Origin: Neoarius graeffei
Taxonomy: Eukaryota; Chordata; Actinopteri; Siluriformes; Ariidae
Assembly (NCBI RefSeq): GCF_027579695.1
Contig: NC_083570.1
Location: forward strand, 95,049,463 to 95,113,462
DNA: 64,000 nt
Direction: 5' to 3'
The position numbers and the translations under genes were made by a program. A model generated the notes under the pieces. It made no database searches. It was given only the letters and a program-made list of their open reading frames with translations, and had not been told where the DNA came from. Below are positions 14,201 to 60,224 of the stretch, one piece after another (the stretch's first letter is position 1; each line of letters opens with the position of its first letter).

Positions 14201-17200
14201 AGGTCCTGTCGCCTGTACAAGGCTCACGTTCTCCTCACTCAACATTTCCGATCACAGAGGATGGAGCCAGCGCTGCTATTACCAGTGATTACTGCGTAAC
14301 GTCCACACTGGCTCGTAGCCAGCCAAGGATAAAATCTCTCTCTCACACACACACACTACAACGTAAGCTTGTGTGTTGTTAAGACACCAACATTAAACAC
14401 GCACACACACGGACTGGCCATTGGGAGTAGCGGGAGTTTTCCCGGTGGTTCAGCGTGGGCCGGCGGAGAAAAAAAACAAAACAGTTGCGCGCTGGCCTTT
14501 AATATGATAAGCAATGTTAACAGTTTCTTTAAGAAACTGTTAACATTGCTTATCATATTAAAGGCCAGCGCGCAACTGTTTTGTTTTTTTCTCCGCCGGC
14601 CCACGCTGAACCACCGGGAAAACTCCCGCTACTCCCGATGGCCAGTCCGTGTGTGAACACGCACAATATAGAGACAAGTCCTTAAGAATTAACATACATG
14701 AAAATAGCTCAGCGGCATGTAAACATTCCCTGAAAGTGTAGGTGGCACTGCGGCTAGATGCTACGTGAAATGGCACAAGGCAAACACCATGCGTCGCTCA
14801 GTCAACAGACAAAATCCACGAACCCAGTAGTCCTCCTACTACTGTGGGTTAGTGTTCTGTGGCCAAAAACACCCTATGCACAGTCATTCCAAAACATCCC
14901 CACTAGTTGCAGGTTATGTCTCAAATACAGATATGCGTTGTGGATTAAGCGATCTATTTTCAAGCATCAGGCTTCTCTTCCTTCATCTTCCAAATGTGGA
15001 CTCCGCTATCTTTTTGGCATGTCAGCATTGAAATACCATTTGCAGAGATATTTCACTCGCCATTAGGAAAAGTAAAAGCAACACATGATTAGGGCTACAT
15101 GATTAGCAGGGGGACACCGTTTTAAGCGCACGGAATTTTAAAAACAATGTAATTACATCTGAGTCCGTCTACATCGCGCAATAAACCCGTCCTTAGCAGA
15201 ACCTACTTCAAAGCATGATGCTAGCTGCAGATGCACAAGTCAAAATCAAATGAACCCAAGTAAACATGCCGCGGCGGGCAACATTAATAACCAAATTGCC
15301 TTACCTTAAAACGCTGCCTTGACCACAGGACGACTCGCAATTATTCCACTTAAATCCACACGGTTTAACACATCTAACACAGCTAGCAAGCTGGATATGT
15401 GCTAATATTGTTGTGCTTGTTTTCTTCCGTAGATGCCATTTTTACATTACCCAGTCCCACATCCAAAAATATGACGTAAATATATGTTAATTGTATTATT
15501 ATAACTATTAGCAAGCAAATCAAACAACATATTAAGAAACCAATATATCAAATCACCCGACACGTATGAAAACAGAAGAACTGATTTTTTACTGTTGCGG
15601 AGATATCGCGGGAGTAGAATGGATGACGTATACAAGGCTACGGTGTGCCTTAGGGGACAGAAGGGTTGTTTTACCTTACAAATGACAAAAAATCGTTTCA
15701 TATCGATATTATGAATTTTGATATCGTTTGACACCAATATCGATATCGTGATAAAAATACGATATATTGCACAGCTCTACCTGAGTGCAATGTTACTTCA
15801 CCTTGGGATGAAGAATATAATGAGATGTCCGAATTATTTCTTACCCTGGCAACAGTCAACTTGTGAATTGCCGATTTTCTTGGTCTTTTTCTCGGCTTTG
15901 CTTGGTCCTCGGCTTCCGGGTGCCTCGCATGAAGCGCTCCCATTTCTCTCTCGTTGTCCGGTCTTTTGGGAAACGATGAGTACTAATCCCATCAAGATTG
16001 GTGTTGCGATACCCTCCTACGATACATCTGTTAACCATTTTTAATAATTATGCGATAACGTTGAAGAAATTTGCAGAAAACCACCAGGTCGTTTTCTCAT
16101 AAACAAACCAGCGCTGGCGTAGGATTCAGAAGGAGGCGTCCCGCACGCGACGTCACGAAAATCAATGTTTGCCGGGAAATCCAAATGCAAAGTTTTTTCA
16201 GAGGCGGACCAATTCGCCTCAAATGGCTTGATTTCAACTGATTTTTTTTCTGGTATTGCGCAAGGTAAAAAAAATTGCAGAGAATGCAGAATGTTACAGA
16301 TATTTGACCAAAGTTTAATATAAAACAGGAAAATCACATTGATCTTGCTCCTGAATTTACCCGTGATATGCACTTTAACCTAACTGCACGTCTTTGGACT
16401 GTGGGGGAAACCGGAGCACCCGGAGGAAACCCATGCAGACATGGGAAGAACATGCAAACTCCACACAGAAAGGCCCTCACCGCCTGCTGGGCTCGAACCC
16501 AGAACCTTCTTGCTGTGAGGCGACAGTGCTAACCACTACACCACTGTGCCGCCCGGCAAGCTGGAGTCTATCCCAGTTGATGATTGGTGAGAAGCGGGGT
16601 GCACCCTGGACAAGTCGCCAGATCATTGCAGAACTGACATAGAGACAACCACTCATATCTACGGTCAATTTAGAGCTACCAGTTAGTCTAACCTGCATGT
16701 CTTTGGACTGGAGGAAACCAATGCAGACACAGGAAGAACATGCAAACTCCACACGGAAAGGCGACTGGGCTCGAACCCAGAACCTTCTTGCTGTGAGGTG
16801 ACAGTGCTAACCACTACATCACCATGCCGCCAATACGGATTCATGGAAAATTTAAAAAATATAATACCAAGTACGGATCTTTTATTCATGGATATGTGAT
16901 TTATTTTCCATGAAATACCATTAGTAAATTAATAAACATATATAAATGCAGGTAAGATATCTTAATTATGAACGTTGGCCGTCCAAACATTGAATTGTTA
17001 TAGACTTCTTAATTTGTTTCATCCGCGATGCATCATCTGTATGAAATCCGTAATATACTGAAGTGATGCGTCTGTATTAAAATCCCTAACCACTCCGTAT
17101 TTTGTATCCTTTTTTTAAATTATAATTTACCTGTGACTTTCTACATCAGTCTTTGGGTGAAATACGTAAACTTCACCCCCTTTGGCAAAAATGGCATTTC

Positions 17201-20200
17201 AGAGTTGTGTTTTCTGGATATTATTATTATTATATGTTCTACATCTTTTCTCAAAAGACTTGTCTGCTGATTAGTTAGTCTTGGCTCCACTTTATCTGGC
17301 ACGTCTACCTCCATCATGTAGCTACCATCGGCAGATAACATCACCGTGGAGACAGTCTTTGTAACGCCTGTGTCAGTGTTCCATAGACTCGTATCAACAT
17401 CCATAAAATTTAATCATCCGTATGAAATCTGTAACATACTGAAACATCCGTGACCAATCCGTAAATTACTATAATCCGTGATGCATCTGTATTAAAACCC
17501 GTAACCACTCCGTATTTTGTATCCTTTTTTAAAATTATATATTTCCGTAATCCGTGACCTATCCATATTCTGTCAACCACTGGAATGTGTTTTGGTGTTT
17601 GCTGCTTGAACAGTTAAGATGAAAGAACTTAAAGAGACAAAAGTAATTATATAGATCGCAAATAAGAAGAATCTGAAATATACAAATTTTGAAAGATGGA
17701 CACAAGAAGTATGTGCATAGGTTGTTTGTTATGAAGTCCAAGCTGGACAATGTGTCCCTGAATGTGCGCAAATAGGTCACAGGATGACTGTTAAGAAGAG
17801 ACATGGCATGAATGTGTGAGAAGAGGAGAATAAATAGCCAAACTGTACGGTGTGTGCTGAGATGTGCAAGAAAAGGTGGCAGGATGAGGCTGCATGGTGA
17901 CCATGAAATGTGCAAAGTGGCAGTTCAGAGACGAAGTGCATTAACGTTACAGAATGAGTGAGTTAAGAGTTTAGTCATTGGGGGTCTCTGACCTTATTAA
18001 CGAGGCCAGTTGTAGTGAGGAGAAAGCTGGCCTTGTGGTGTGAGGCGTTTCTTGGGCTTGCTCATTGGGGATGTATCTGAATTAGGGCCTGACCGATAAA
18101 TCTGCGTACTGATCTTATCGGCTGATATGAGCTCATTGCTGGTAAATTCGTATCGGTGTTTTATATAAAGGTTAGAAAAGCAGCCTTGGCCAAAAAAAGT
18201 GTTTCCGGTTACGAAGATTTCAAAACTAGGGTAGGTAGGCAGGCATTTTTTTTTTTTTAATTTTTTTTTCAAGATGGTTGCCATAACCTATATTTAGACA
18301 GGAATAATTTCACAAAATATAATGAATTTCTTTGCAGGTCACTTCTGATGAATCTGATGCAGCATGAGACACCTTTTAACATGAATTTTTCTGTAAATAT
18401 AACAGCTCAATACACCATGAGAGAGAGAGAGCAGCCCCGCCCCTCTCTGCTCCCTGAGTACAGCTCGTCGCCTTGGTAACGGTGCAGGGAAAAGAGCGCT
18501 TTTTTTCTCAGTTCTCTCTCCTCGAACAGCGCTGATTTACACGGAAACGAAAGGAGCTATTCACAAAATTCTTTCACATTGAGTGCTACAAGGCTCCCAT
18601 GAACACATTAATGTAATTTTTTTTTTTTTGTCCCTAGTGTAAAAAATGTGGCCACTAGAGCGAGTTAAAAACAAGTGACTTTTCTGATTTTGCAGTAAAA
18701 GCGCTGCCACGTTTATAATGTGAGTCTATGGGAGAGCGCGGCTGTCCTCTCCTTACTTTCAGGCTTCTCATTCAAAAACTGTAAATCCTATCGCTCAGGT
18801 AGACACATTGTGTGAATCAAGACAAGTGTGACTACAACTTTTGAGAAAATTGTGTGTGTAGAGTGAAAATTGTGGCTGAGAAAACAGTTTAAATGAGAAA
18901 GTTAGAGCTTTTTTTTTTTTCAAGCTGCCTACACTCTAAACTCCTGAGCGCCACTGGTGTGTAACGCCATAGACACCCATTATAAAGCCTGAATTTCTCC
19001 AGATTTGCTCATGGTGTTTGATCTGTGACTGATCAAAAAGTATAGAGCCTAGCAAAAAAGTTGAATGCCAGATCCACACAGGAGAATTTTGTCTCCGTTT
19101 TAAAGTTTGAATCATGTCTCTAGGTGAAAGACAAAATAAGCGTCATCTCTGCTTCTGTTCCCTCCGATGTCTCCTCCGCCGGCCCCGACATACTACTGCC
19201 TCCGCCGAGTGCGCGTGCACACCGCATGTTGGGCCGCGCATGAGTTACTCTCCCTTGATCAACGAAGTCGGTGGGGAATTTGTGGTTATTATCGGTACAA
19301 ACAGCGCGAATCACAACTTAAATGAGTGTGGTTCAGTTTGACATTATTGTCAGTCCGTTAGATAAACATTTAATTTTATTAAAATCGAAAATTAAATATT
19401 TAGAGCCTGTGGGCTACAAAAATAATAGTCATTAAAGTAACCGGCTAGACTTAATTGTGTAGTTGGCTGTATGGCCGGCAGCCGGCGCTTGTGGAAAGCC
19501 CTGATTTTCCCAGTGAGTGACGACAACTTTCGGTTCACGCGGTTGGGTTATATGTAAAAGTCGCAACTGGGAAAAAAACGAAAAAAAAGTTTAGGGTTGG
19601 GCGGTATGGATTAGGGTTGGTTGGGTAACCGGAAACACACACACTTTTTTTTTTTTTTTTGGCCTTATTGCTCACTTGTGTGTTCACTGCTTCAGATGGG
19701 TTAAATGCAGAGGAGGAATTTCACTGTGCTTGAGTGTACAACCCCTGGCAAAAAATATGGAATCACTACTCTTGGAGGATGTTCATTCAGCTGTTTTACT
19801 TTGTAGCAAAAAAAACCAAATCAGAGACATGACACAAAATTGTTTTATTTAACAGCTGAACATTCTGGCTTTGTAAAATATACCTCAAAAAATTAGATGA
19901 AATTGTTGTAATTAATGGCACATTTTTTTAAAGATCAAGTAGAAGAAAAAATTATGGAATCACTCAATGATGAGGAAAAAATTATGGAATCAAGCTATAA
20001 CTTGCATTTCTAAAACAAATATCCGCACAAGCCTAAATGTGCAAATTAGTCTGCAGTTAAAAGAGACTGCTTGTAGACCTGAATGAGCTGTTGCACCTGG
20101 CTGATTGACAGAAAACATGGCCCCAACAAGAGAGCTGTCAGTTGAAACAATGGAAAGGATTATAAAACTCCTTAAAGAAGGTAATTCAACATGGAGTGTG

Positions 20201-23200
20201 GTAAAAGATGTTGGGTGTTTCCAGTCAGCTGTGTCTAAAATTTGGAGCAAGTACAAACAAAATGGGAAGGTTGTAAAAGGGAAACATACAGGTAGATCAA
20301 AGCGTCAGGACAGGAAACTCAAAGCAAGATGCCTTGAAAATAGACAATGCACAAGAAAAGAAATGAAAAACAAACGGGCAGAAACAGGAGTCAATGGTTG
20401 TGACCAAAATGTAAGAAATCGGCGGAAGGAAATGGGATTTACATACAGAAAAGCCAAATGTTAACCATCATTAACACCTAAACAGAAGAAAACAAGGTTG
20501 CAGAGGGGTTAAAGAGAAGGAGTCATGGACTGTGGGTGATTGGATGAAAGTTATATTCAGTGATGAATCATGAATCTGCATTGGCCAAGGAGATGATGCT
20601 GGAACTTTTGTTTGGTGCTGTTCCAATGAAACAAAGATGACTGCCTGAAGAAAGCAAGCAAATTTCCACAGTCATTGATGATATGGGGTTGGATGTCAGG
20701 TAAAGGACCTGGGCAGATGGCAGTCATTACCTCTACAGTAAATGCACAGGTGTATATTGAAATTTTGGACACTTTTCTCATTCCATCAATCAAAAGTACT
20801 TTTGGTGGTGGTGAAGTCATTTTTCAGGATGATAATGCATCTTGCTACAGAGCAAAGAGCATTAAAACTTTTCTTCAGGAAAGGCAGATCAACTCAATGG
20901 CATGGCCAGCAAACAGTCTGGATCTCAATCTAATTGAAAATATATGGTGGAAATTGGGGGGGGAAAAAAAAAAGTCCATGACAAGGCTCCATCCTGCAAA
21001 GCTGATCTGTCAACTGCTATACGAGAAAGTTGGAACTTGACTGATAAAGAATATTGTTTTTCATTAGTGAAGTCCACGCCTCAAAGAATTCAAGCTGTCA
21101 TAAAAGCCAGAAGAGGTACAGCAAAGTACTAATTGTGATTTATTATTATTTTTTTTAAATTTATGATTCCATAATTTTTCCTCATCGAGTGATTTACATA
21201 ATTTTTTCTTCTACTTGATCTTGAAAAAAATGTGCCATTAATTACAAAAAATTAATTAAACTTTTTGAGGTATATTTTACAAAGGGGCAGCACGGTGGTG
21301 TAGTGGTTAGCACTGTCGCCTCACAGCAAGAAGGTCTGGGTTCGAGCCCCGTGGCCGGCGAGGGCCTTTCTGTGTGGAGTTTGCATGTTCTCCCTGTGTC
21401 CGCGTGGGTTTCCTCCGGGTGCTCCGGTTTCCCCCACAGTCCAAAGACATGCAGGTTAGGTTAACTGGTGACTCTAAATTGACCGTAGGTGTGAATGTGA
21501 GTGTGAATGGTTGTCTGTGTCTATCACTACGTTTACATGCACATAGAGAGAATCGAATTTCTGCCGTTGCTCGACTGAAATCGAAGTTCAAAATGCCATG
21601 TATACACCTTAATTCGGCTGAAATTGAACCAAACTTGATTTCTCGGAATCGAGCTACACGACCTAGTTTATGCGATTTCTGCCGAGCTACTTTGTGCATG
21701 TATACCCTATCGAGCTAGTTGTCGAGCTACTTCCGGAAGTGACGAGTGACGAGACCACAAGCGGGAAACGCAACAGCCTCGGTCGGCATGACAACGAATC
21801 ATGACAACGGCATGAATCTTTTCTTTTTGTGGCATTGTTTGCACTGTTAAAATTTAGCTCACTTACTGTATCACCAAATACATCTGTACAGCTGTTGCAT
21901 AGCTGTGAATTGTGTACATAAACAAGTCATTGTATTTGTGTGTGTGTTTATATGTCCAACATCTGAAGAATGTCAATAAAAACAAAACAATTGAACTTTT
22001 TGTGTGTTTATTAAGACATAAGTTAAATTGTAAGCAAAAAAAAAAAATTTTTTTGTAAGCAAAAAATGGACTTTAGAAAAATATTATTGTGCAAAATAAG
22101 TTGTCTTACAAAACAGTGGTCTGCGCCGGACAGTTTGTAGCCATAGTCTAAAAAAAAAAAGCCTAACAGCTTGAGCACGGAACTGCTAGTGTTGCCAGAT
22201 TGGGGGTTTTAAGTGCATTTTAGCGGATTTGAACATGTTTTGGGCTGGAAAACGTCAGCAGTATCTGGCAACACGATAAGCTCTTCTTCATGACGACAAC
22301 CGGAAGTGTACCAACACGATGGGGCGTGTAGCGCCACGTGTGGCTCGGGTGCACAATGCACCTTGCACAATAGCCCGATTTCACTTGTGCATGTAGGATT
22401 GGATTTCTCTGGCACCCCTGCTGGGACCCTTTGCTCGATTACCAACAGCAGCTCGATTTGGACGTGCATGTAAACGTACTGTATGTGTCAGCCCTGTGAT
22501 GACCTGGCGACTTGTCCAGGGTGTACCCCGCCTTTCGCCCGTAGTCAGCTGGGATAGGCTCCAGCTCGCCTGCGACCCTGTAGGACAGGATAAAGCGGCT
22601 AGAGATAATGAGATGAGTAGGCTATAGCTTGAATATATAACAAATAAATGTGTTTCCAGCTGAATAGTTATTAATATCTGCCAAATTAAAGTGATTTCTA
22701 TTGTGTATGTAGTTCAGAATTTATTTTTTCCCCCCATGTACATTTGATCCTCCTTGATTACTTTTGTACTATATTTTAAGACATTTCTATTTGAAGTCTG
22801 GGGGGTGGGCAGGCCTGGAAATTAACTTTTTTGCCAACAAGCCAGTGGGGTTAGTAACTTTGCAAAGCCCGACTCTGAATTCACTAGCCCGACACATTTT
22901 GAGTTTAATTTTTAACAAATTGTAAAAAATCAATTTTTATAGCAAATATTTAAAATTAATTTATCTTGCTTTACATTTTGATGATTTTTTTAAAATTAAT
23001 GTTTACTTGGTGGTAGTAGTAGTTCAGATATTGTGATGGTGTAACTGTTCACACACAGTTGCAGTGTATTTAATAGTGATTAGATTTAGTAAGTGGTAAG
23101 ATTTGACGTCTACATTTGTTTTTGTTTTTTTATAGTTATTGCACATTTAGTAATTTATGATCCTTTCTTAATGCACCTTTTAGGTTTTAATTTGCCCTCT

Positions 23201-29800: not shown

Positions 29801-32800
29801 TCTGACAGAATACTTCACACTCCCCTGATAAAGAGAAGCACATTCACTTGCTCTTGCGTCATGTTCAGGAACAAACTAATGTTAACGGCGCTGAAACAGC
29901 CACTGTCAAATGGTGTGGTCGGAGTCTTGGACTTGACTCTGATCAATGGTGGACTCGACTCAATTTTTTTTTAATGACTTAACTTGAACCGTGGGAACTC
30001 GAGACTGGACTCGGTTTAGTGACTCGACTACAACACTGCAGTATGTGAACAATTTGCATTTTTTTCCAACAGCCTTCTTTGATTACAAAGATGAAGGGAA
30101 TTACCCCAAACCCCCTTCATACAACGTCGCCACGTCTTTACCATCATACGACGAAGCCGAGAGGACCAAGGCGGAGTCCAGCGTTCCTCTGATGCCTTCA
30201 CGGGTGAGGACACGGCCATCTCGCAGAGCTGAAGGCATATGGTGCTAGTTATCACTCAAAACATTCACGCAAATGAACTCTTTTCTAACAGGACGAGGAT
30301 TTCGTCGCCAGAGACGACTTTGATGACGTCGACCAGCTGCGAGTCGGGAACGATGGCATATTCATGCTGACGTTTTTTAGTAAGACGCACACCTCGGAGT
30401 AAAGAAATGTGTTCCAGACAGTGATGTGTTTTAGATTTCTATCCTGAACAGGCAAGATGATGATGATCTACTGTGTTCTTTCTTTTTCAGTGGCTTTCCT
30501 TTTCAACTGGATTGGCTTCTTTTTGTCATTTTGCCTGACCACTTCCGCGGCGGGACGCTACGGTGCAGTCTCTGGCTTCGGCCTCTCCCTGGTCAAGTGG
30601 GTCCTGATTGTCAGGGTAAGATTTTTCAGAACGCGTGCACACAGTGACCAGGTACTGAGAACAAAGATGAAGAATAATACATTATAGGTGCAGATTACAA
30701 AAAGCTAATCTGGCATAGAATAGCTAGAATTCCCCCCCCCCCCAGCCTTATTAGCATATTTCTCATTAATCGTATTATATACAGTCTTATCTGAAAGTAT
30801 TAGGACGGCAAGGCAAGTTCTTTTGTTTCTCATTCATCGTATTATATACAGTCTTATCCGAAAGTATTAGAATGGCAAGGCAAGTTCTTTTGTTTCTCAT
30901 TAATCGTATTGTATACAGTCTTATCTGAAAGTATTAGGACAGCAACGCAAGTTCTTGTGTTTCTCATTAATTGTATTATATGCAGTCTTATCCGAAAGTA
31001 TTAGGACGGCAAGTTCTTTTGTTTCTCATTAATCGTATTATATAGTCTTATCTGAAAGTATTAGGACGGCAAGGCAAGTTCTTTTGTTTCTCATTAATCG
31101 TATTATATACAGTCTTATCCAAAAGTATTAGGACGGCAAGTTCTTTTGTTTCTCATTAATCGTATTATATAGCAGGGATGTGATTTTTCCGCGAATTCGC
31201 GGAATTCCGCTTTTTTCACCTCAAAACTTGAAAAAAAAAATTTTTCCGATTTTTCCCTCAAATCCACATTCGTATCCTATTCGTTCCGACTTTGTTTGAA
31301 AGATGGCAGCCTCGGATTTGCATCTTTACGCCTCGATCACGGAGGCTGCCATCTTTCAACTCTTTGTTTGAAGCGAGCGCATTCATTGGTTGTTACAAAG
31401 CGATGGGCCAATCACGTAACTCGTTTCATCTCATTGACGTAATTACGTCATTTACGCAATTACGTCATTGAGATGAAACGAGGTACGTGATTGGCCCATC
31501 GCTCTGTAACAACCAATGAACGCGCTTGTTAGATAGCTGTACGTAAGCTCGCTTCAAACAGAGTTGAAAGATGGCAGCCTCCGTGATCAAGCGTAAAGTG
31601 CGCTGCGCGCGAGTGAGAGAGAGAGAGTGCGCGCGAGAGAGAGTGAGAGTGTGCGCGCGAGAGAGAGAGCGAGAGAGAGAGAGAGAGCGCGTGAGTGAGT
31701 GTGCGCGCGCGTGAGAGAGCGAGAGAGAGAGCGAGCGAGAGAGAGAGCGCGAGAGAGAGAGAGCGCGAGAGAGAGAGAGCGCGCGAGTGAGAGAGCGAGA
31801 GAGAGTGTGCGCGTGCGAGAGAGAGCGCGAGTGAGTGTGTGCGCGCGCGAGTGAGAGAGAGAGCGCGAGAGAGAGCGAGAGAGAGAGCGCGCGAGTGAGA
31901 GAGCGAGAGAGAGAGTGTGCGCGTGCGAGAGAGAGCGAGAGAGAGAGAGCGCGAGTGAGAGTGTGTGCGCGTGCGTGAGTGAGAGAGAGAGAGCGCGTGA
32001 GTGAGTGTGTGCGCGCGTGAGTGAGAGAGAGAGAGTGCGCGCGCGCAAGTGAGAGAGAGAGTGAGCGAGAGTGTGTCAGAGTTGCATGTTGACCATTAAA
32101 TTGGCTTGAATTTGTTAATCATGACAAGTTTTTTCTTGTGTGTTTGCTTGCCATTTTAGTACAATTTTTAAGTCAGAAAACCCCAGAACCCAGGAGCTTC
32201 GGGGGGCTTCCCCCCCTTGTCCCCCCACCAGGGTGCTGCCCTGGGCCAGCTGGGGGCCTGTGGCCCCCAGACCCCCGGCTAAAATTTTCAGATAATTTCA
32301 CCAGCCCCAAATCACATCCCTGTATATAGTCTTATCCCAAAGTATTAGGACGGCAAGTTCTTTTGTTTCTCATTAATCGTATTATATACAGTCTTATCTG
32401 AAAGTATTAGGACGGCAAGGCAAGTTCTTTTGTTTCTCATTAATTGTATTATACAGTCTTATCCAAAAGTATTAGGACGGCAAGTTCTTTTGTTTCCGCT
32501 ACACACTGAAGACATTTGGGTTTGAGATCAAAAGCTGAATATGAGGCAGAATGTGAGCTTTCATTTCCTGATATTTACATCTAGATGTGTTAAACAACTT
32601 GCACTCAACCGACAGGTGAGCAAATAGTCTTAAAGTAAATGACGGTTAATGTTTGCTTGCAATAACTGCAGCAAGCCGGCGACCTGCTTCCCATCACCCG
32701 AGGGATACGTGGCTGAAACAGAGGTGGTCAAGGAGACAGCTTGAAAAAGTTTCCCTGTAGTTGATCTTTAAGCCACAGAGAGCTCTGGTAGCATTATACT

Positions 32801-44662: not shown

Positions 44663-45334
44663 ACCTGTGTCTTAATGGCTGTCTGGTCCATCACGCAGTT
44701 ACGTGTTTGTGTTTAATCACTGTAGAGCTCAGCTGGACTTCAGCACTGTCTTTAAGTCCCCCCTCCACCCCCACCCGGTTCTCTTACAAATACTGACCAA
44801 TTAATACAGAGTAAATTAAGAAATTTTTTTTTTTAAATTATTAATTAATTATTTTTTTTTATATCTTTCGCCCAAAAGAAGTTTGGTGCGGGATATAGAA
44901 ACGGGTTCCGGTCCATCTGGTCATGTTTCCGGGCCATGTCTTTTAAAATTACTGAAGATATCGTCATGAAACTTTGTATACATATCAAGCAACGTGAATT
45001 GGTGCCTTTTTGCTATTTTGGATTTTTGAAGAAGAGAAAAAAAAGGATTTTTCAAATTTTTACATAAAAATAGATTTTGACTTTGTTTCTAAGAGCAATG
45101 TTCATTTCCGAAATGCATATCCAAAGCTATTCACGATACGGATTTGAAACTTGGTATACATGTTAACAGGGTGATGCAGATGTGCCTTTTCATACTAAGA
45201 AATTTTAATTTTTCATATTTCCATGGAAACAATTTCAGACTTAAAATCTCAGGTTATTCTTAGGGGTAAGTTTTGTTTCTGGAACAGAATTTGAATACTG
45301 AGTGGCATGGTCTTGAAAGTTGGTACTGTATATA
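44663..45334. other. Intergenic, no feature recognised
   Basis: AT-rich. Several phrases recur loosely (GAAACTTGG.ATACAT near 44975 and 45150; also 47130), hinting at a degraded repeat that continues beyond the Tc1 insertion to about 47150. Confidence 0.4.
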
Positions 45335-46944
45335 CAGTGGTGCTTGAAAGTTTGTGAACCCTTTAGAATTTTCTATATTTCTGTATAAATATAACCTAAA
45401 ACATCAGATTTTCACACAAGTCCTAAAAGTAGATAAAGAGAACCCAGTTAAACAAATGAGACAAAAATATTATACTCGTCATTTATTTATTGAGGAAAAT
45501 GATCCAATATTGCATATCTGTGAGTGGCAAAAGTATGTGAACCTTTGCTTTCAGTATCTGGTGTGACCCCCTTGTGCAGCAATAACTGCAACTAAACGTT
45601 TCTGGTAACTGTTGATCAGTCCTGCACACCGGCTTGGAGGAATTTTAGCCCATTCCTCCGTACAGAACAGCTTCAACTCTGGGATGTTGGTGGGTTTCCT
45701 CACATGAACTGCTCGCTTCAGGTCCTTCCACAACATTTCCATTGGATTAAGGTCAGGACTTTGACTTGGCCATTCCAAAACATTCACTTTATTCTTCTTT
45801 AACCATTCTTTGGTAGAACGACTTGTGTGCTTAGGGTTGTTGTCTTGCTGCATGATCCACCTTCTCTTGAGATTCAGTTCATGGACAGATATCCTGACAT
45901 TTTCCTTTAGAATTCGCTGGTATAATTCAGAATTCATTGTTCCATCAATGATGGCAAGCCGTCCTGGCCCAGATGCAGCAAAACAGGCCCAAACCATGAT
46001 ACTACCACCACCATGTTTCACAGATGGGATAAGGTTCTTATGCTGGAATGCAGTGTTTTTTCCTTTCTCCAAACATAACGCTTCTCATTTAAACCAAAAA
46101 GTTCTATTTTGGTCTCATCTGTCCACAAAACATTTTTCCAATATCCTTCTGGCTTGTCCACGTGATCTTTAGCAAACTGCAGACGAGCAGAAATGTTCTT
46201 TTTGGAGAGCAGTGGCTTTCTCCTTGAAACCCTGCCATGCACACCATTTGTTGTTCAGTGTTCTCCTGATGGTGGACTCATGAACATTTAACATTAGCCA
46301 ATGTGAGAGAAGCCTTCAGTTGCTTAGAAGTTACCCTGGGGTCCTTTGTGGCCTCGCCTACTATTACACGCCTTGCTCTTGGAGTGATCTTTGTTGGTCT
46401 GCCACTCCTGGGGAGGGTAACAATGGTCTCGAATTTCCTCCATTTGTACACAATCTGTCTGACTGTGGATTGGTGGAGTCCAAACTCTTTAGAGATGGTT
46501 TTGTAACCTTTTCCAGCCTGATGAGCATCAACAACGCTTTTTCTGAGGTCCTCAGAAATCTCCTTTGTTCATGCCATGATACACTTCCACAAACATGTGT
46601 TGTGAAGATCAGACTTTGATAGATCCCTGTTCTTTAAATAAAACAGGGTGCCCACTCACACCTGATTGTCGTCCCATTGATTGAAAACACCCGACTCTAA
46701 TTTCACCTTCAAATTAACTGCTAATCCTAGAGGTTCATATACTTTTGCCACTCACAGATATGTAATATTGGATCATTTTCCTCAATAAATAAATGACCAA
46801 GTATAATATTTTTGTCTCATGTGTTTAACTGGGTTCTCTTTATCTACTTTTAGGACTTGTGTGAAAATCTGATGATGTTTTAGGTCATATTTATGCAGAA
46901 ATATAGAAAATTCTAAAGGGTGCACAAACTTTCAAGCACCACTG
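45335..46944 (-). mobile_element. Tc1-like element, family C
   Basis: TA flanks (45333-45334, 46945-46946). The ends CAGTGGTGCTTGAAAG are mirrored exactly. Inverted repeats extend about 200 bp (for example GGTTCTCTTTATCTACTTTT, right side). Length 1610 bp, the normal full size for fish Tc1 elements. Confidence 0.9.
45551..46577 (-). pseudogene. Tc1-family C transposase, inactivated
   Basis: The start ATG at 46577 is followed by TGA at codon 3 (MA*TKEIS). The frame then gives a normal paired-like DNA-binding region (FGLHQSTVRQIVYKW, LPRSGRPTKITP) before a one-base shift near 46287. The catalytic region survives in pieces: [20 protein letters not shown] and LNPMEMLWKDLK, so all three DDE acids are still readable. 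The C-terminus ends AAQGGHTRY at 45551. Confidence 0.88.
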
Positions 46945-48644
46945 TATGTTGATTAAGTAATGTATGTGTGTGTTTTGATACTAGGAAATGTGAGAAATTT
47001 TAATCTTTAGCTCAGCTGGGTCCAGTGGGTTTATGCCATGGGCTGCTGAGGTCAGTGTAAAGAGGTAGGGTTGGTTTCCTGCAGCACAGCTTGAAAAATA
47101 TGACAAATAATATCTTGAAACTTGGTATATAGAGTGGGAGATATTGATGACTGTCTTGTTGATTGATTTTTTTTTTTTTTACAATCTTTATTTAGTTTTC
47201 ATAGTTATCAATACAAGACAATCTCCTCAATAGTATTGGGGAAAAAAACAACCCAAAAGACAATAACAAAAGATACAAACAAAAACAGAGCCTGTGTGAG
47301 ATTGTATTAGTAAATGTTACTGACATCTGATTAATCATGTCTTCCCTTATGTCAACCATTTCCCACATCTTTTTATATAAACAACATCTTTCATTTTAAC
47401 TTATGTGAGATGCTCCATCACCAGTATATCATCTATGATTGTCATCCACTGTTTGTAACTTGGAGTGTCAGGCTTAAGCCAATTCTTAGTAATAGTCTTC
47501 TTCCCAGCCATCAAAAGAATCCTGACCAAATATTGGTCACTTTCATGCACCGTGCCCTCCAAATGACCCAGGTACAAAACAAGACAGGATTTAGGTATCA
47601 TATATCCCAAAACATCACAGAGAACTGAGTGAAGGGTTCCCCCAGAAGGGTTGTATTTTTGTGTGATTCCAAAAAATGTGTGTATGATCTGGATCCATGT
47701 GGTTGCATAATCTCCAACATGGCTGTTGAACATTTATCTGTTTACTTCTAATTTTAGGTGTAATAAAGTACTGAATTAGATTCTTCCAACTGAATTCCCT
47801 CCATTTCAAAGATTGTGTTGTAATTTGATGTGTTTTCCACATATCATACCATATCCCCTCTGGAATCTCCTCACCCAGCTCCGTTTCCCATTTGACTTTA
47901 ACATATAATGTTGAGTCTGTTCTAGAAGCCATCAAACATTCATACAGAACCGCCACAGCCTTTGGAATAGCTTGGCTATAAGCTTGTACAAGTAGCTTTA
48001 TGATGGGATGTATTTTATCCTCAGTTGTTTTAATACTTTTGATATAATAATCCCTCATTTGTAGATATCTAAAGTCCTGATTCGTTAGATCATGTGTATT
48101 CTTTAGTTCTTGAAAGCTTTTCATTTCACCTCTTTTAATAGTTGTACATATAGCTGTAATTCCTTTTTCTGCCCAATATTTAAATCTAACATCATATTTT
48201 CCTGATGCAAATTTGTCATCATATGCAATCCATTTTAATAGTCCAATTTCCTTCCCTATTTTTAATTGTTTCACTGTGGAATACCACATATCTAAAGTAA
48301 AGGATATCACTGGGTTAAAATTATGCTCATCTTTGATATAAGTGGGGATTTCTGTTTCACCAATACTTATTTGAATCGGGTATTTAAACACAGACATTTC
48401 AATATCTTTCCATCTAGCTACATATCCCTCATCACACCAGTAAATTAGTTGACTCAGTTGTGCAGAAAGAAAATATTCTTTTAGATTTGGGAATGCCATT
48501 CCCCCTCTGTCTTTAGATAATTGTAGTGTGGTGTAGCGTACTCTGGGCCGTTTACTTCCCCATACAAATCTTGATATGCACTTATCCCATTTAATAAATT
48601 GGTCTTTAGATATATCTTCAGGCAAAGATAGGAACAAATATAGC

Positions 48645-49436
48645 TGCAAGCAGCCACATGCTAAGAGATTGATGTTATGTTGGAGAGATGGTCATAACTT
48701 GTGCTGACCTTGAAATTTTTAAATGACCTTCAATGGGGCATCCAACAGTGTGATCAGGCATTGGAATTTTGTTTCTAACCAAAACACGAGATATGAGCCA
48801 AAACACATTTTTACAAATTATAGCGCTCCCTATTGGTCAATTTGCACCAAATTTGGTGTGGACCCTTCTGGAGGGGTGTGGCTTTATGTCGTTAAGTTTG
48901 GTTGAGATATGTCAAAGGGCTGCCGAGATATGAGCTTACTTCCTGTTTGGCGTCTTCGCCACTAAATTTGATTGGCTGCTGTGCAGTGACAGTTTTATCA
49001 ATCGCTCCAAAAAATAGACTCTATATGCACCATAGTCTGAAGATGGTCCATGTCAATTTTCATGAAAAACGGTCAAAAAATGTAGAAGTAGAATTTTATT
49101 CAAGTTTAACAAAATCCAAAATGGCGGAAAATCTACCCAGGTAGAAAATGACGTCATAGGGTGCATTGGAATCGGCTTGGCCCGAGGATTCCAGGGATAC
49201 CAAGTTTTTGAGAATCGGATGTACGGTTCAAAAGTTATGAGCAAAAATGTATGTCAAACTTTGACCAGTTGGTGGCGCTAGCGAGTTTGAGATGGCAACA
49301 TGAAATTTACTGAGAAGAATCATGAAACTGTCCAGAATCAGTGTGCTAAATTTCATAACTTTTTACCATACGGTATAATAATAATAAGAAACCATAGAAA
49401 CACTAGAGGTGCCTGCAGCTCCGCTGCTTGGCCCCT
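48645..49436. mobile_element. Unnamed 0.8-kb element inside L1 ORF2
   Basis: Direct repeat AAATATAGC at 48636-48644 and 49437-49445. Starts TGCAAGCAGCCACATG; ends GCTCCGCTGCTTGGCCCCT. Interior phrases such as TTTGCACCAAATTTGGTGTG are, as I recall, common in fish genomes. No coding capacity; superfamily not known to me. Confidence 0.6.
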
Positions 49437-50399
49437 AAATATAGCAGACGTGGTAGGATGTTCATTTTTACCACATTTATCCCGTCATTTAATCCCAGTG
49501 GGTAAGTGAACCGTCTGTCAGTATCTGCCCTGATGTTTTTGTTAATGTGTTCATAGTTACTACTATATAATTTGGAAAGATCTTTAGTTATGTTTATGCC
49601 CAAGTATTTAATTGATTTTGCTTCCCAGTTTATCTGCCATTCCCTAAGTTCTTGGTTTGGTGAACAGTTAAACATGAGGATTTGAGTTTTCAATATATTT
49701 ACTTTATACCCTGAATAAAATCCAAATTTGTCAAGAGTTTGTGTAAGCTGCTTAAATGAATTCCCTGGGTTTTTTAAATAAATCATAATGTCATCCGCGA
49801 ACAAGCTTATTACGTGCTCTTGTTTATTAATTTCTGTACCTTTTATTGAACTGTCTTGTCTGATCATCTGGGCCAATGGCTCAATGTATAGGGCAAACAG
49901 TGTGGGGCTAAGACAGCATCCCTGTCTGGTACCTCTCTCCAAAACGAATCTTTCTGACAGAGAGCCATTGACCTTTACTCTAGCTGTAGGCTTGTTATAG
50001 ATAGACTTGATGCATTGAATTGACTTCATGTTGAATCCAAATTTTCCCAAAGTTAAATATAAAAATTCCCAATTGACTCTATCAAAAGCTTTTTCTGCAT
50101 CTAAGCTGATCAAAGCTGCTTGTATGTTGTCTTTATGTATTTTATGTATAATATGCAATGTTCTAATATTATCTCGTGTTTTGTCTATTCCTAACAAACC
50201 CACTTTGATCCTCATCTATTAAGTCTGGTACAAATGATTGGAGTCTAGTTGATATAATTGAGGTGTACATTTTGTAGTCGACGTTTAGTACTGAAATCGG
50301 CCTATAATTTTGGCAATATTCTTTGTCTTTAAAGGGTTTGGGGAGCACAGTAATAATTGCTTCTGAACAGGAGGGGGGTATTATGTCATTAGTCATAAT

Positions 50400-51860: not shown

Positions 51861-52939
51861 GTCATAATCCAATTAAAAGTAGTGTGGAGCAGTGGTAATG
51901 GTTCCTCACTGAATTTTTTATACCACTCAGAGGGAAATCCATCACTACCAGGTGCCTTATTTGATTTTAATTTTTGTATTGTTTTCCGGATTTCATCTAT
52001 TGTTATCTTTGCTGTAATGTGTTCATTTTGTTTAGTGCCTATTGAAGGTAGGTCCAGAGAGTCGATGAAAGTCTGTATCATTCTGATCTAAAGCCGATGA
52101 CTCGGTGTAAAGTTCTTTGTAATAATCTCTAAAAATATTTTCAATTTCTACTGGTTCAAATTTGGGCTGGTTTGTTTTTGGGTCGCATATTTTATTGACT
52201 GTAGTTTCTGGCTGTTGTTTCCGTAAACGTCTTGCTAACAATTTCATTGCTTTGGGACCTGATTCATAATAGTTTTGCTTTAAATATCTTGCTTTTGTTT
52301 CTGTTTCACACTGGAGTAGGTTATTAATTTCCTTTCTCACCTCGCTCATTCGTTGTTTGATTTTTGGTTCAACTTTGCCTCTCCCCTTGTGTTTCTGTTC
52401 CAAATGTCTCAATTCTGCTATATAGATTTTATATTGCTTTATTCTTTCTCTTTTGAGATTGCTTGTAATTGCGATCAGTTTTCCCCGTATCACTGCTTTT
52501 AGAGCGTCCCACAATATAGCTGGATCTGTTGTTTTCCTCCAGGTAAGTCTGTATATCTGCCTTAATTTGCTCCACTACTGATTTATTATTTAATATCCCC
52601 ACGTTCAATCTCCATATTGTATCTTTCCGTCTACATTTTAAGTGTATCTTCAGATAGATGGCACTATGATCAGATACATGTGCCACTCCAATCCAGCAGT
52701 CTTTTATGTTCTCTCTATTTTCCTTTTGCATAAAGTAGTCAATTCTAGAGTACACCGAGTGTGTTGTTGAGTAATGACTAAAATCTCTCTGCAATGGATG
52801 TAGATCTCTCCACACATCAAAAAAGCCCATCTCCTCCCAAGTATTCCTGACCAGTTTTGTGATAGATTTCTTATTTCTCTTAAAACTAGATGTATCCATG
52901 TCATAATCCATTAAAACATTAAGGTCTCCCCCACATATA

Positions 52940-54676
52940 CAACCCCTGGCAAAAAGTATGGAATCACCAGTCTTGGATGAGCACTCATTCACACGTTTTA
53001 TTCTGTAGAACAAACTGAGATCACAAACATGATACAATAATAAAGTCATTCCAAAGTGCAACTTCTTGGCCTTCAGAAACACTAAAATAAACGAAGAAAA
53101 TACATTGTGATAGTCAGCAAATGTTACTTTTATAGACCAAGCACAGGGAAAAAAATATGGAAATCACTCAATTCTGAGGAAAAAAATATGGAATCACTCA
53201 ATTTTCAGGTAGAAAATAAGGACTCACCCAGTCAATTTCCTTTCCCTAAATTGACACCTGCCTCAGATTAGATCTGCTCGTTAGTCTGCAGTTAGAAACT
53301 GCGCAGTTATCACACCTTGGAGGGCTGCTGGACCAAGTGGATTGGCAAGAATCATGGCTCCAACAAGAGAGATGTCTCTTGAAACAAAAGAGAGGATTGT
53401 CAAACTTCTTAAAGAAGGTAACTCTTCACGCATGGTTGCCAAAGATGTGGGCTGTTCAGTCAGCTGTATCTAAGATATGGACCAAGTACAAACAGCATGG
53501 GAAGGTTTTTAAAGCCAAGCATACTGGTAGACCAAGGAAGACATCAAAGCGTCAAGACAAAAAACTTAAGGCCGTATGTCTTGAAAACCGAAAAAGTACA
53601 ACAAAACAAATGAAGCATAAATGGGAGGAAGCTGGAGTCAATGTACAAGTATGTGACCGAACCGTGAGAAACCGCCTAAAGGAAATGGGATTTTCATATA
53701 GGAAAGCTAAAAGAAAACCATCGTTGACACCTAAACAGAAAGAACAAGACTACAATGGGCTAAGGAGAAGCAATCATGGACTGTGGATGACTGGATGAAA
53801 GTTATCTTCAGTGATGAATCACGAATCTGCATTGGACAAGGCGATGATGCTGGAACTTTTGTTTGGTGCCGTTCCAGTGAGATTTATGAAGAGGACTGCC
53901 TGAAGAAAACATCCAAATTTCCACAATCCTTGGTGATATGGGGCTGCATGTCAGGCAAAGGCACTGGGGAGATGGCTGTGGTTACTTCAATAAATGCACA
54001 GGTTTACATTGACATTTTGGACAGTTTTCATATCCCTTCAATTGAAAAGATGTTTGGGGATGATGAAATAATTTTCCAAGATGACAATGCATCGTGCCAT
54101 AGAGCAAAAACTGTGAAAGCATTCCTTGGTGAAAGACACATCCAGTCAATGTCATGGCCTGCAAATAGTCCAGATCTCAACCCAATAGAAAACTTGTGGT
54201 GGAAATTGAAAAAAAAAAAAGGTCCACGACAAGGCTCCGGCCTGCAAAGCTGATCTGGCAACTGCAATCAAAGAGAGTTGGCACCAGATTGATGAAGAAT
54301 ACTGTTCGTCACTCATCAAGTCCGTGCCTAAGAGACTGCAAGCCGTTATAAAAGCCAGAGGTGGTGCAACTAAGTACTAGTGATGTGTTTTGAATGTTCT
54401 TTTGTTTGTCTGTTTTTCGTGATTCCATATTTTTTTCCTCAGAATTGAGTGATTCCATATTTTTTTTCCCTGTGCTTGGTCTATAAAAGTAACATTTACT
54501 GACTTCCGCAATGCTTTTTCTTCATTTCTTTTAGCGTTTCTGAAGGCCAAGAAGGTGCACTTTGGAATGACTTTATTATTGTATCATGTTTGTGATCTGA
54601 GTTTGTTCTACAGAATAAAACGTGTGAATGAGTGCTCATCCAAGACTGGTGATTCCATACTTTTTGCCAGGGGTTG
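52940..54676 (+). mobile_element. Tc1-like element, family A copy 2, inside L1 ORF2
   Basis: TA flanks (52938-52939, 54677-54678). The ends CAACCCCTGGCAAAAAGTAT are mirrored exactly, and inverted repeats extend about 210 bp or more. Removing the element and one TA restores the L1 endonuclease frame across the junction. Same family as 19739. Confidence 0.92.
53354..54380 (+). pseudogene. Tc1-family A transposase, inactivated by frameshifts
   Basis: Starts MAPTREMSLETKERIVKLL. The first break is near 53458, where two bases appear lost compared with copy 1. The second frame carries QSAVSKIWTKYKQ, a GRPRKTSKR hook/nuclear-import-like stretch and KEMGFSYRKAKRKPS. The frame shifts again near 53750 and once more in the A-run near 54210. 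Catalytic residues are all visible: [31 protein letters not shown]. Final codons ARGGATKY, stop TAG at 54378-54380. Confidence 0.88.
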
Positions 54677-55198
54677 TACATATGCCCTCTGCTTCCAATG
54701 CAATGGTGTCAAATAGTGACTTGAAAAATTCCTTATTACTCTCAGGTGGGGCATATATGTTCACCAACGTTATCACTGTTTGGCCCATCATCCCTTTTAC
54801 AATAATATAAGTTCCCTCTTTGTCTTTTATTTCATTTTGGCATTCAAATTTGGTTGCATTATGCATCAGTATTGCTGCTACTCTTTTCCGACCACTGGAG
54901 TGTGAACTATAAAAGGTGTTTTTGAAACCAAATCTCTTTAATTTCTCATGTTCTGCTTTTGACAAATGAGTTTCTTGTAGGAAATTTATGTGTCTTTTCT
55001 TTATTAAATTTGGTCATTATTTTAGCTCTTTTGACTGGGTTTCCTAAGCCGTTGACATTCAAAGAAAGCACATTAATTTCTTCTTGATTGGTATTCATAA
55101 GCCATCTTAGTTGTGTTAACTTTGTAGAGATTCATCCACAAGCTTACAGTTAAACATTTAGGAGCAACACTCTCCAAAACTGTTTAGTGCTTATTTGA

Positions 55199-55533: not shown

Positions 55534-55908
55534 GGCGGCACGGTGGTGTAGTGGTTAGCGCTGTCGCCTCACAGCAAGAAGGTCCGGGTTCGAGCCCCGG
55601 GGCCGGCGAGGGCCTTTCTGTGCGGAGTTTGCATGTTCTCCCCGTGTCCGCGTGGGTTTCCTCCGGGTGCTCCGGTTTCCCCCACAGTCCAAAGACATGC
55701 AGGTTAGGTTAACTGGTGACTCTAAATTGACCGTAGGTGTGAATGTGAGTGTGAATGGTTGTCTGTGTCTATGTGTCAGCCCTGTGATGACCTGGCGACT
55801 TGTCCAGGGTGTACCCCGCCTCTCGCCCGTAGTCAGCTGGGATAGGCTCCAACTTGCCTGCGACCCTGTAGAAGGATAAAGCGGCTAGAGATAATGAGAT
55901 GAGATGAG
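55534..55908 (+). mobile_element. SINE inside L1 inter-ORF spacer
   Basis: Exact 14-bp duplication ATTTTAACTCCGAT at 55520-55533 and 55909-55922. Full head, body and tail (TGGTGTAGTGG, GGTTCGAGCCC, AGAGATAATGAGATGAG). Very close to the copy at 10348. The long perfect duplication indicates L1-type target-primed insertion and a recent date. Confidence 0.92.
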
Positions 55909-55936: not shown

Positions 55937-56833
55937 TTATCCGGCGTTGTTTCCCCTCAGACGAAAATCACGCAGTCTTTCACGTGCGCGTCTGCTGGCC
56001 TCCCCGGTGCGTCCACTCCCGGTGTGTTTCCATGTCGTGGTTCTGGTTGATTGGAGTCTCTCAACGATTCTGGTTTCTCCAGTGTTGGTCCCCGCGTTAT
56101 CAACATCGTATCCTCTCTCCCGCAGGTCTCTAGTTGCCTCCTCTGCACTGCCGTAGGTTTTCACGTCGCTGGACCAGTGGATGCGCATCTTGTTGAGAGG
56201 TGTCTGAAAGCGGATGCCTTCTCTCTTTAAAATCTTCTTGATGTTGGAGTACGCTTTACGTTGTTTCAGTGTCCTCTCTGAGTAATTGTGATCGAAGTAA
56301 GCCCTGTTTCTTCTGAGGGTGATTGTTTTCTTCTCCCAAGCTCTTTTCAGTATCATCTCCTTTACAGTAAACTGATGGAAGTTGATGACAATCGATCTGG
56401 GAGGCTGGTCCGTTTTTGGCTTTGGAGCCAAGGCTTGGTGAGTGCGCTGAATCTGAAGGTCCGAGTTTATGGAAAATTCCTCACAGAGCCACTTATCCAT
56501 GAACTGTGCCACCGAGTCACTCTCAGACTCTGCCTCCTCTTGTAAGCCATACACCCGTAAATTATTCCAACGGGACCTCGATTCCAAGTTGTCTAGTTTG
56601 ACCATTATCATTTTCTGCTCTTGCATTATGTCCTGCAGTGCACCGTTTGCTTCATAACTCCACGACTCGAGTTCTTCTGTGCGTGTCAGAGCAGCGCTTA
56701 TCTTCTCATCATGTTCACCAATATCCGTGGTCATTTTTGCAAACTTTTGATCAATGTCTCCCTTAAGTTCTGTCAGTTCGTTTCTCATTTGCGCTGTAAT
56801 TTCGTCTTTGAATGCTTTTAGGTCCGTCTTCAT
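55937..56833 (-). pseudogene. L1 ORF1 (RNA-binding chaperone), N-terminus disrupted
   Basis: An open frame of 298 codons. It starts MKTDLKAFKDEITAQMRNEL with a heptad-rich stretch (about 1-90) expected to be coiled coil. The RRM-like core follows (RSRWNNLRVYGLQEEAES; SIVINFHQFTVKEMIL) and then the C-terminal domain (REGIRFQTPLNKMRIHW; GYDVDN). Upstream, a related frame including ISKQIQALQN runs into a TAA directly before this ATG, so the original ORF1 was longer and is broken by a stop. The SINE lies just 3' of it. ORF1p forms trimers that coat L1 RNA (family knowledge). Confidence 0.85.
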
Positions 56834-57129
56834 TTAGTTTTGCAGGGCTTGAATTTGCTTGCTAATGCTGTCCAGGCTGCTTTGAAACGAGGCCATGCTA
56901 GCTTCCGGTGTTGGCTTGCTCTCGTTAATCAATCTATTTATTTCTTTACCTTGGATGTCTGGGTTCTTTTTGGTACTCCACTCATTCTCAGTTTCAAAGT
57001 TTGTCGTCGTTTATCTCAGGTTTTAGCAGAGTTTAATATGTTGGCCTGAGGGAGCTCCTGTCTTACACATCCATGCTGCTCTACCGACCCACCCGGAAGT
57101 CCTGTCTTGTTGATTTTAAATATGAAATA

Positions 57130-58736
57130 CAGTGGGGCAAAAAAGTATTCAGTCAGCCACCAATTGTGCAAGTTCTCCCACTTAAAAAGATGAGAGAGGC
57201 CTGTAATTTTCATCATAGGTACACTTCAACTATGAGAGACAGAATGGGGGGAAAGAATCCAGGAAATCACATTGTAGGATTTTTAATGAATTAATTGGTA
57301 AATTCCTCGGTAAAATAAGTATTTGGTCACCTACAAACAAGCAAGATTTCTGGCTCTCACAGACCTGTAACAACTTCTTTAAGAGGCTCCTCTGTCCTCC
57401 ACTCGTTACCTGTATTAATGGCACCTGTTTGAACTCGTTATCAGTATAAAAGACACCTGTCCACAACCTCAAACAGTCACACTCCAAACTCCACTATGGC
57501 CAAGACCAAAGAGCTGTCAAAGGACACCAGAAACAAAATTGTAGACCTGCACCAGGCTGGGAAGACTGAATCTGCAATAGGTAAGCAGCTTGGTGTGAAG
57601 AAATCAACTGTGGGAGCAATTATTAGAAAATGGAAGACATACAAGACCACTGATAATCTCCCTCGATCTGGGGCTCCACGCAAGATCTCACCCCGTGGGG
57701 TCAAAATGATCACAAGAACGGTGAGCAAAAATCTCAGAACCACACGGGGGGACCTAGTGAATGACCTGCAGAGAGCTGGGACCAAAGTAACAAAGGCTAC
57801 CATCAGTAACACACTACGCCGCCAGGGACTCAAATACTGCAGTGCCAGACGTGTCCCCCTGCTTAAGCCAGTACATGTCCAGGCCCGTCTGACGTTTGCT
57901 AGAGAGCATTTGGATGATCCAGAAGAGGATTGGGAGAATGTCATATGGTCAGATGAAACCAAAATAGAACTTTTTGGTAAAAACTCAACTTGTCGTGTTT
58001 GGAGGAGAAAGAATGCTGAGTTGCATCCAAAGAACACCATACCTACTGTGAAGCATGGGGGTGGAAACATCATGCTTTGGGGCTGTTTTTCTGCAAAGGG
58101 ACCAGGACGACTGATCCGTGTAAAGGAAAGAATGAATGGGGCCATGTATCGTGAGATTTTGAGTGAAAACCTCCTCCCATCAGCAAGGGCATTGAAGATG
58201 AAACGTGGCTGGGTCTTTCAGCATGACAATGATCCCAAACACACCGCCCGGGCAACGAAGGAGTGGCTTCATAAGAAGCATTTCAAGGTCCTGGAGTGGC
58301 CTAGCCAGTCTCCAGATCTCAACCCCATAGAAAATCTTTGGAGGGAGTTGAAAGTCCGTGTTGCCCAGCGACAGCCCCAAAACATCACTGCTCTAGAGGA
58401 GATCTGCATGGAGGAATGGGCCAAAATACCAGCAACAGTGTGTGAAAACCTTGTGAAGACTTACAGAAAACGTTTGACCTCTGTCATTGCCAACAAAGGG
58501 TATATAACAAAGTATTGGGATGAACTTTTGTTATTGACCAAATACTTATTTTCCACCATAATTTGCAAATAAATTCTTTAAAAATCAGACAATGTTATTT
58601 TCTGGATTTTTTTTCCCCTCATTCTGTCTCTCATAGTTGAGGTATACCTATGATGAAAATTACAGGCCTCTCTCATCTTTTTAAGTGGGAGAACTTGCAC
58701 AATTGGTGACTGACTAAATACTTTTTTGCCCCACTG
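57130..58736 (+). mobile_element. Tc1-like element, family B, structurally complete
   Basis: TA flanks (57128-57129, 58737-58738). The ends CAGTGGGGCAAAAAAGTATT are mirrored. Inverted repeats of about 200 bp contain repeated AAGTATTCAGTCA/AAGTATTTGGTCA direct-repeat-like motifs, an IR/DR arrangement as in Sleeping Beauty-type elements. Length 1607 bp. Inserted 14 bp outside the L1. Confidence 0.93.
57496..58572 (+). CDS. Tc1/mariner transposase, open reading frame intact
   Basis: A 358-codon uninterrupted frame starting [15 protein letters not shown]. It cuts and pastes its own element by binding the terminal inverted repeats. Domains in order: paired-like helix-turn-helix (about 8-50), a GRPR-like hook reduced to SGAPRK (58-63), a second helix-turn-helix (about 70-115) and the RNase-H-like DDE domain. 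Catalytic acids fall at D153 (WSDETK), D244 (FQHDNDPKH) and E279 (LNPIENLW), the DD34E spacing and the same numbering as Sleeping Beauty. The glycine-rich [14 protein letters not shown] segment is present. The usual length is about 340; the last 18 or so residues run into the right inverted repeat. No frameshift or stop, unlike the other three Tc1 transposase copies in the window. Activity is an inference only. Confidence 0.92.
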
Positions 58737-58738
58737 TA

Positions 58739-59229
58739 TATAGTTGAGAAAGAGAGGGAGATTCGAGAGGTGATGGAGTGATAACATCAGCAATGTGGAG
58801 GTCATTGGAGCAGTGAAAGAAGACACGTTAGACCGCGGGCATTGGAGAAGACTGACTGCTGCAGAGAAGCCGGAGCAGCAAGAAGAATAGTTGTGAAATG
58901 TAGTTTTTTTTTTTAAGATGTTAATGAATAATGTAAATGGAATTGAATGCAGAAAAGACTGCTACTTGATATAAAACGGGGCTAATTAAGACCTTTTGCT
59001 AAGTCACTAAGTTGCATCCTGATGCCCTACGGCTGGTTAGAGTCTCATCACATCTCTCCTGTGGAGGACGGCCTCGTATGGACAGTCGAAAGACGCACTT
59101 GGAAGATGGCTCTGGACACTTAGTTTTGCTATGATGGCTGATATCAGTTGCCCTGATAACTTTAGGACTCCAGTTGTCATGAACAGTTTTGCACTCAAGT
59201 CTCCATCAATGAATAGTTAATGACTTTAA
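58739..59229. other. Short intergenic stretch, no feature recognised
   Basis: Purine-rich start, then unremarkable sequence. No exon. Confidence 0.4.
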
Positions 59230-60220
59230 AGGGCATATTCTGGACCAATTGCAGTTTTTTTTTTAATATGAAAGTATGTCCCTTTACACTCATCCAGAAG
59301 GGTAATTTTGCACAAGGCCATCTGTCTACAGCAGAAAAAAATACAATAAAACGCGTCTGGAAAAATCCCAAGAGAGTCTGGAGCCAGATTCGTGACGTCA
59401 CCTGTGGAAGCGCCAGCACGGTTTCAGTGCACAGCCTGTGTAGACCAAGCGCTCCCATTTCTCTCTCGTCCGGTCTTTTGGGAAACGATGAGTACTAATC
59501 CCATCAAGACTGGTGTTGCTACACCCTCCTACGATACATGTGTTAACCATTTTAATAATTACGTGGTAACGTTGAAGAAATTTGCAGAAAACCACCAGGT
59601 CGTTTTCTCAAACAAACCAGCGCTGATGTAGGATTCAGAGGGAGGCGTCCCGCACGCGACGTCACGAAAATCAATGTTTCCCGGGAAATCCAAATGCAAA
59701 GTTTTTTCAGAGGCGGACCAATTCACCTCAAATGGGGTGGCACGGTGGTGTAGTGGTTAGCACAGTCGCCTCACAGCAAGAGGCGAGGGCCTTTCTGTGT
59801 GGAGTTTGCATGTTCTCCCCGTGTCTGCATGGGTTTCCTCCGGGTGCTCCGGTTTCCCCCACAGTCCAAAGACATGCAGGTTAGGTTGATGTGGGGCAGC
59901 CTTGGGCTGAGGTGCACTTGAGCAAGGTACCTGACCCCTGACTGCTCCCCGGGCGCTTTGGGCTGCTCACTGCTCTGAGTGTGTGCGTGTGTTCACTGCT
60001 TCAGATGGGTTAAATGCAGAGGATTAATTTCACTGTGCTTGAAGTGTGCATGTGACAAATAAAGGCTTCTTCTTCTTAAATGGCTTGATTCCAACTGAAT
60101 TTTTCTGGTATTGTGCAAGGTAAAAAAAATTGCACAAAATGTGAGATATTTGACCAAAGTTTAATATAAAATAGGAGAATTACATTGATCTTACTCCTGA
60201 ATTTACCCGTGATATGCCCT
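59230..60220 (-). mobile_element. TTAA-site (Kolobok-like) THAP element, copy 3
   Basis: TTAA at 59226-59229 and TCAA (one change) at 60221-60224. Ends AGGGCATATTCTGG and, inverted, AGGGCATATCACGGG. Carries the THAP exon at 59398-59595 (minus strand; MVNTCIVGGCSNTS, THRFPKDRTREKWERL). A SINE variant (59733-60080) is inserted near its right part. Confidence 0.65.
59733..60080 (+). mobile_element. SINE variant with different tail
   Basis: Same tRNA-like head (GTGGTTAGCACAGTCGCC) and CAGTCCAAAGACATGCAGG, but missing part of the head after the B-box region, with the tail GGGGCAGCCTTGGGCTGAGG and AATAAAGGCTTCTTCTTCTT. AAATGG repeats on both sides. This copy allows the split SINE at 12110-16553 to be pieced together. 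Confidence 0.75.
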
Positions 60221-60224
60221 TCAA

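Follow-up and report, generated by a model that had tools for sequence, protein, structure and literature searches.

Among the Tc1 transposons described so far, the closest to the locus analyzed here are Sleeping Beauty (SB), ZB of zebrafish, the ZB-like elements and the Group 1 elements. An IR/DR layout has been described for SB (PMC4820933). ZB encodes a transposase of 341 amino acids and is 51.3% identical to SB (PMC7913693). Its ends are reported to be 100% alike and its 20 full-length copies more than 99% alike, and the element has been shown to be active (PMC7913693). In the relevant passages of PMC9777934, transposase coding sequences within one family are over 80% identical, AT repeats are given as the preferred target of ZB and SB elements, a transposase frame extending into the 3’ end is ascribed to SB and not to ZB, ZB-like or SB-like elements, and intact ZB-like copies are counted in 183 of 316 genomes. 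Group 1 Tc1 elements, common to lampreys and several fishes, have a consensus of 1610 nt, to which their copies are 92.5-100% identical (Kuraku et al., 2012; PMC3516227), and the frame of DTSsa1 is given as 340 amino acids (PMC2198921).

The window (the whole 64-kb stretch of DNA that was analyzed) contains an element of 1607 bp, starting with CAGT and ending with ACTG (57130-58736). It is flanked on each side by TA (57128-57129 and 58737-58738), as expected for the target duplication of Tc1/mariner transposons, and together with both TA copies occupies 57128-58738 (+). The element is a near-complete Tc1 transposon, that is, a representative of a well-known kind. Our full reading, to which we assign a probability of about 75%, is that a Tc1/DD34E transposon of the Sleeping Beauty/ZB type, and within it most likely ZB-like, entered AT-rich DNA at a TA in a single insertion and has probably lost the stop codon after Tyr340. 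The joined flanks read GAAA-TA-TATAG (GAAATATATAGTTG), which fits the AT-repeat preference of ZB and SB elements (PMC9777934).

The outer arms of 131 nt are 95% complementary, and the inner pair of 92 nt is 78% complementary. In total, the left inverted end covers about 210 bp (57128-57337, +) and the right one about 212 bp (58527-58738, -), with 187 of the 210 ungapped columns identical. Each end of about 200 bp carries two direct repeats, an outer and an inner one, located at 57136-57177 (+) and 57309-57352 (+) on the left and at 58686-58733 (-) and 58516-58558 (-) on the right; by homology to SB, all four are putative transposase binding sites. The match between outer and inner repeats was equalled by 4 of 1000 base shuffles for the left end and by none of 1000 for the right end. 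A core pattern, derived from these direct repeats and then located in the element, occurs four times: counted from the left end, its copies lie at 16 and 190, and counted from the right end, on the other strand, at 16 and 192, so that the arrangement is symmetric. The first-pass annotation had described the locus as a structurally complete Tc1-like element with mirrored ends, TA flanks and IR/DR-like repeats, and this description is confirmed by the exact ends, the TA on both sides, the inverted ends, the shuffle tests with the four symmetric core copies, and the DDE frame considered below.

An open frame of 379 codons from stop to stop runs through the element, the longest frame among 300 base shuffles of the same sequence being 197 codons. 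From an ATG at 57496 it encodes, as it stands, a transposase of 358 amino acids (57496-58572, +) with D153, D244 and E279, a DD34E triad with 34 residues separating the last two. The residue numbers are identical to those of Sleeping Beauty, as had been noticed previously. The Pfam families HTH_SB, HTH_Tnp_Tc3_2 and DDE_3 were all detected above their cut-offs, in agreement with a paired-like DNA-binding region followed by a DDE domain. The best relative with a solved structure is SB100X (E 2.4e-82), with 131 of 225 residues identical in the catalytic domain (58%); 27 of 53 residues of the PAI domain are identical to SB. Twenty positions were compared with SB100X, and 16 of them agree, including K186, H187, G188-190, N245, S270, Q271, N280, K339 and Y340; among these, the importance of H187, N245, Q271, N280 and K339 is pointed out in the paper on the SB structure (PMC4820933). 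The four differing positions are 119, 120, 212 and 252. In SB, K252S is without effect and I212S is hyperactive (PMC4820933); the element has arginine at both positions, a residue absent from the variants in the passages of that paper dealing with them. Word matches to a possible core promoter (TATAAAA, 57445-57451, +, 51 bases before the ATG) and to a possible polyadenylation signal (AATAAA, 58568-58573, +) are the candidate expression signals. The window gave no matches in Rfam and tRNA scans.

A tblastn search with the transposase revealed four other Tc1-like regions in the window. The region at 45512-46577 (-) is divided among three frames and already contains two stops in its first part, that at 53747-54377 (+) changes frame, and the region at 20117-20956 (+) has seven stops in frame; the fourth is a short fragment (8727-8915, -). 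The earlier statement that three of the four Tc1 regions of the window are dead is thus correct for the three larger ones, which are interrupted by stops or frame shifts, and the count has to be extended by the fragment. The first of these regions belongs to a Tc1-like copy at 45332-46947 with CAGTGG ends, a broken transposase and arms that are 96.7% identical (ungapped), i.e., with better ends than the element studied. The second lies in a dead Tc1-like element at 52932-54684, whose 266-bp ends are 95.1% identical (ungapped). As this element is flanked by two pieces of a minus-strand L1-like endonuclease frame, it jumped into that L1 copy.

The L1-like stretch also contains a piece of reverse transcriptase (49403-50212; RVT_1, 1.2e-29), the endonuclease piece being below the Pfam cut-off. 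A 298-codon frame (55937-56833, -), with no Pfam match, was named ORF1-like by its look; its CpG content is high (0.84 observed/expected), and the remainder of the L1-like element is fragmented. The 1607-bp element is located on the 5’ side of this ORF1-like frame. Several other repeats were found. Self-comparison revealed a family of short repeats, about 96-98% alike (10349-10722, 21285-21524, 22482-22617 and 55534-55905), which are more alike than the Tc1 copies are among themselves and in places open on both strands. Tandem arrays of an approximately 67-bp unit containing TACAGTCTTATC occupy 30759-31171 and 32323-32484; by eye, the arrays resemble a tandem multiplication of part of a transposon end. 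Repeats at 12949-13915, 15932-16380 and 59226-60224 are 86-94% alike, some of them mutually inverted, and a palindrome-like pair lies within 13391-13915.

The end of the transposase frame is unusual. Codon 341 (58516-58518) is TGG, and the frame continues for 18 residues past Tyr340 to a TAA at 58570 (tail with stop codon, 58516-58572, +). The SB100X chain terminates at TKY, the transposases of ZB and DTSsa1 have 341 and 340 residues, respectively (PMC7913693; PMC2198921), and a stop immediately follows TRY in the dead copy at 45 kb and TKY in that at 53 kb. As all these proteins end at or about residue 340, the simplest reading of the extension is a probable loss of the stop codon. The full, uninterrupted frame previously reported is therefore open over the 340 standard codons, and it also includes 18 residues beyond the usual transposase end. 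The right inner repeat lies within the DNA that encodes the tail (58516-58569), and the frame, ending at 58572, overlaps the right inverted end, which starts at 58527; a frame ending at residue 340 would leave the 3’ end free of overlap, as described for ZB-like elements. On the other hand, the lengths given for ZB-like transposases in ray-finned fishes range from 304 to 404 amino acids (PMC9777934), so a protein of 358 residues need not be abnormal, which is a point against stop loss. C-terminal tagging is stated in PMC7077980, with reference to three other papers, to completely abolish SB transposase activity; by analogy, a transposase with the 18-residue tail may be impaired. The probable stop loss makes the self-sufficiency of the element doubtful, and the activity that had been considered possible is less likely for this copy, as its stop codon seems to be lost. 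A literature search on read-through of Tc1 stop codons in fish returned nothing to the point.

It is improbable that the element is young, currently active and self-sufficient, with a C-terminal tail that is normal for its family or harmless. Such a state would account for the open frame, the complete ends, the intact triad and the agreement with SB100X at 16 of 20 positions, and many published genomes contain intact ZB-like copies (PMC9777934). However, near-identical ends, which would be expected of a young active element, were not observed. The outer arms are identical at 124 of 130 sites (95.4%), and the full arms differ at 23 of 210 ungapped sites (89.0% identity), no better than the arms of the dead copies at 45 kb (206/213 ungapped, 96.7%) and 53 kb (252/265 ungapped, 95.1%) and in contrast to active ZB with its identical ends and closely similar copies (PMC7913693). 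Moreover, the frame departs from the usual 340-341 residues, and no second copy of the family was found within the 64-kb window by tblastn or self-comparison. Arm identity was rejected as dating evidence, as the two dead copies match or exceed it. The same applies to CpG depletion, since the observed/expected ratio of the element (0.31) lies between the lowest and highest ratios of the dead copies (0.27 at 45 kb, 0.36 at 53 kb and 0.16 at 20 kb).

An old insertion, whose family is dead in the host and whose frame has stayed open by luck, is likewise unlikely. It would agree with the six differing sites of the 130 in the outer arms, all of which are transitions, and with a CpG depletion similar to that of the dead copies, but it is at odds with the simulated decay of 340-codon frames, in which survival was defined as escape from stops and frameshifts. 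When transitions were set to 60% and indels to 0.12 per substitution, with 80% of the indels shifting the frame (all assumed values), about 50%, 25%, 4% and 1% of the frames survived 0.5%, 1%, 2.3% and 3% decay, respectively; the value of 2.3% presumes two identical arms at the time of insertion, which is possibly wrong, as the similarity of the inner halves is far lower than that of the outer ones. The youth of the element, proposed in the first-pass annotation, is thus unproven and weakly supported, the evidence being mixed: 340 standard codons are open, with a survival of about 4% at 2.3% decay under the assumed rates, but the arms and the CpG ratio are no better than those of the dead copies.

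There is a small chance that the whole family uses a 358-residue transposase, with the C-terminus encoded across the right inner repeat, which would then be coding sequence and binding site in one, and with an enzyme working despite the tail. In this case the enzyme would tolerate the kind of C-terminal extension that reportedly abolishes the activity of SB. Least probable of all is that a mistake in assembly or base calling produced the TGG codon or the open frame as a whole: a one-base difference would explain the unusual frame end, but the parts of the element (frame, ends, repeats and TA copies) fit one another, and random errors break frames more often than they keep them.

For a ZB-like transposon with a lost stop codon, the features observed in the sequence (ends, repeats, TA copies, frame and catalytic residues) suggest by homology the usual cut-and-paste cycle. 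The transposase, in its working form, would bind the two direct repeats in each end of about 210 bp, the bound ends would be brought together, the site formed by D153, D244 and E279 would cut the element out, and the excised element would be inserted at a TA. In this copy, translation would run 18 residues past Tyr340 into the right inner repeat. The ends of the element could probably still be mobilized by a matching transposase.

No relatives of the element were found by protein in viral contigs, genome contigs and phages, or by DNA in viral contigs (two words), genome contigs (one word), phages and plasmids; a three-row profile of the window proteins detected three viral-contig loci at 30% identity. 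Literature searches with DNA and peptide words taken from the element returned no papers. Its designation as a fish element is plausible, given the kind of elements present in the window. The locus represents a copy of a known kind of cut-and-paste element, with ends and catalytic residues in place and autonomous jumping unproven. The find is an ordinary one and its value modest, as more than half of the genomes carrying ZB-like elements have intact copies (PMC9777934); the value is also limited by the probable loss of the normal end of the protein in this copy.

Comparison with the described systems gave the following picture. The element shares with Sleeping Beauty the IR/DR layout and the DD34E triad at identical residue numbers, but the 58% identity of the catalytic domains is too low for one family, and membership in the SB family was rejected. 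Group 1/DTSsa1 of salmonids and lampreys is similar in size (consensus of 1610 nt, PMC3516227, vs. 1607 bp). Six Group 1 primers match the element at 101 of 126 bases; five of them exceeded the best of 200 shuffles each, and the remaining one (13/20) was no better than the shuffles. Given an identity of 92.5%, the lowest reported for Group 1 copies, so few matches would be expected with P of about 7e-6, although the primers sample little of the element, and Group 1 membership was rejected; judging by these matches, Group 1/DTSsa1 is related to the element, but apparently is not the same group. ZB of zebrafish has a comparable size (1597 bp), 201-bp ends and an SB-like layout, and differs from the element in its 341-residue transposase, its perfectly matching ends, its nearly identical full-length copies and its demonstrated activity (PMC7913693). 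With the ZB-like elements, as described in PMC9777934, the element shares the TA target and the PLL motif in the linker, and its size of 1607 bp, ends of about 210 bp and protein of 358 residues are inside the published ranges (1391-2063 bp for intact ray-finned copies, 53-231 bp and 304-404 amino acids, respectively), ranges that are shared in part by ZB, SB and SB-like elements; the overlap of the frame with the right end is the difference from the published ZB-like description. Based on these size ranges and the primer matches, and not on a tree, the branch to which the element belongs is most likely the ZB-like one.
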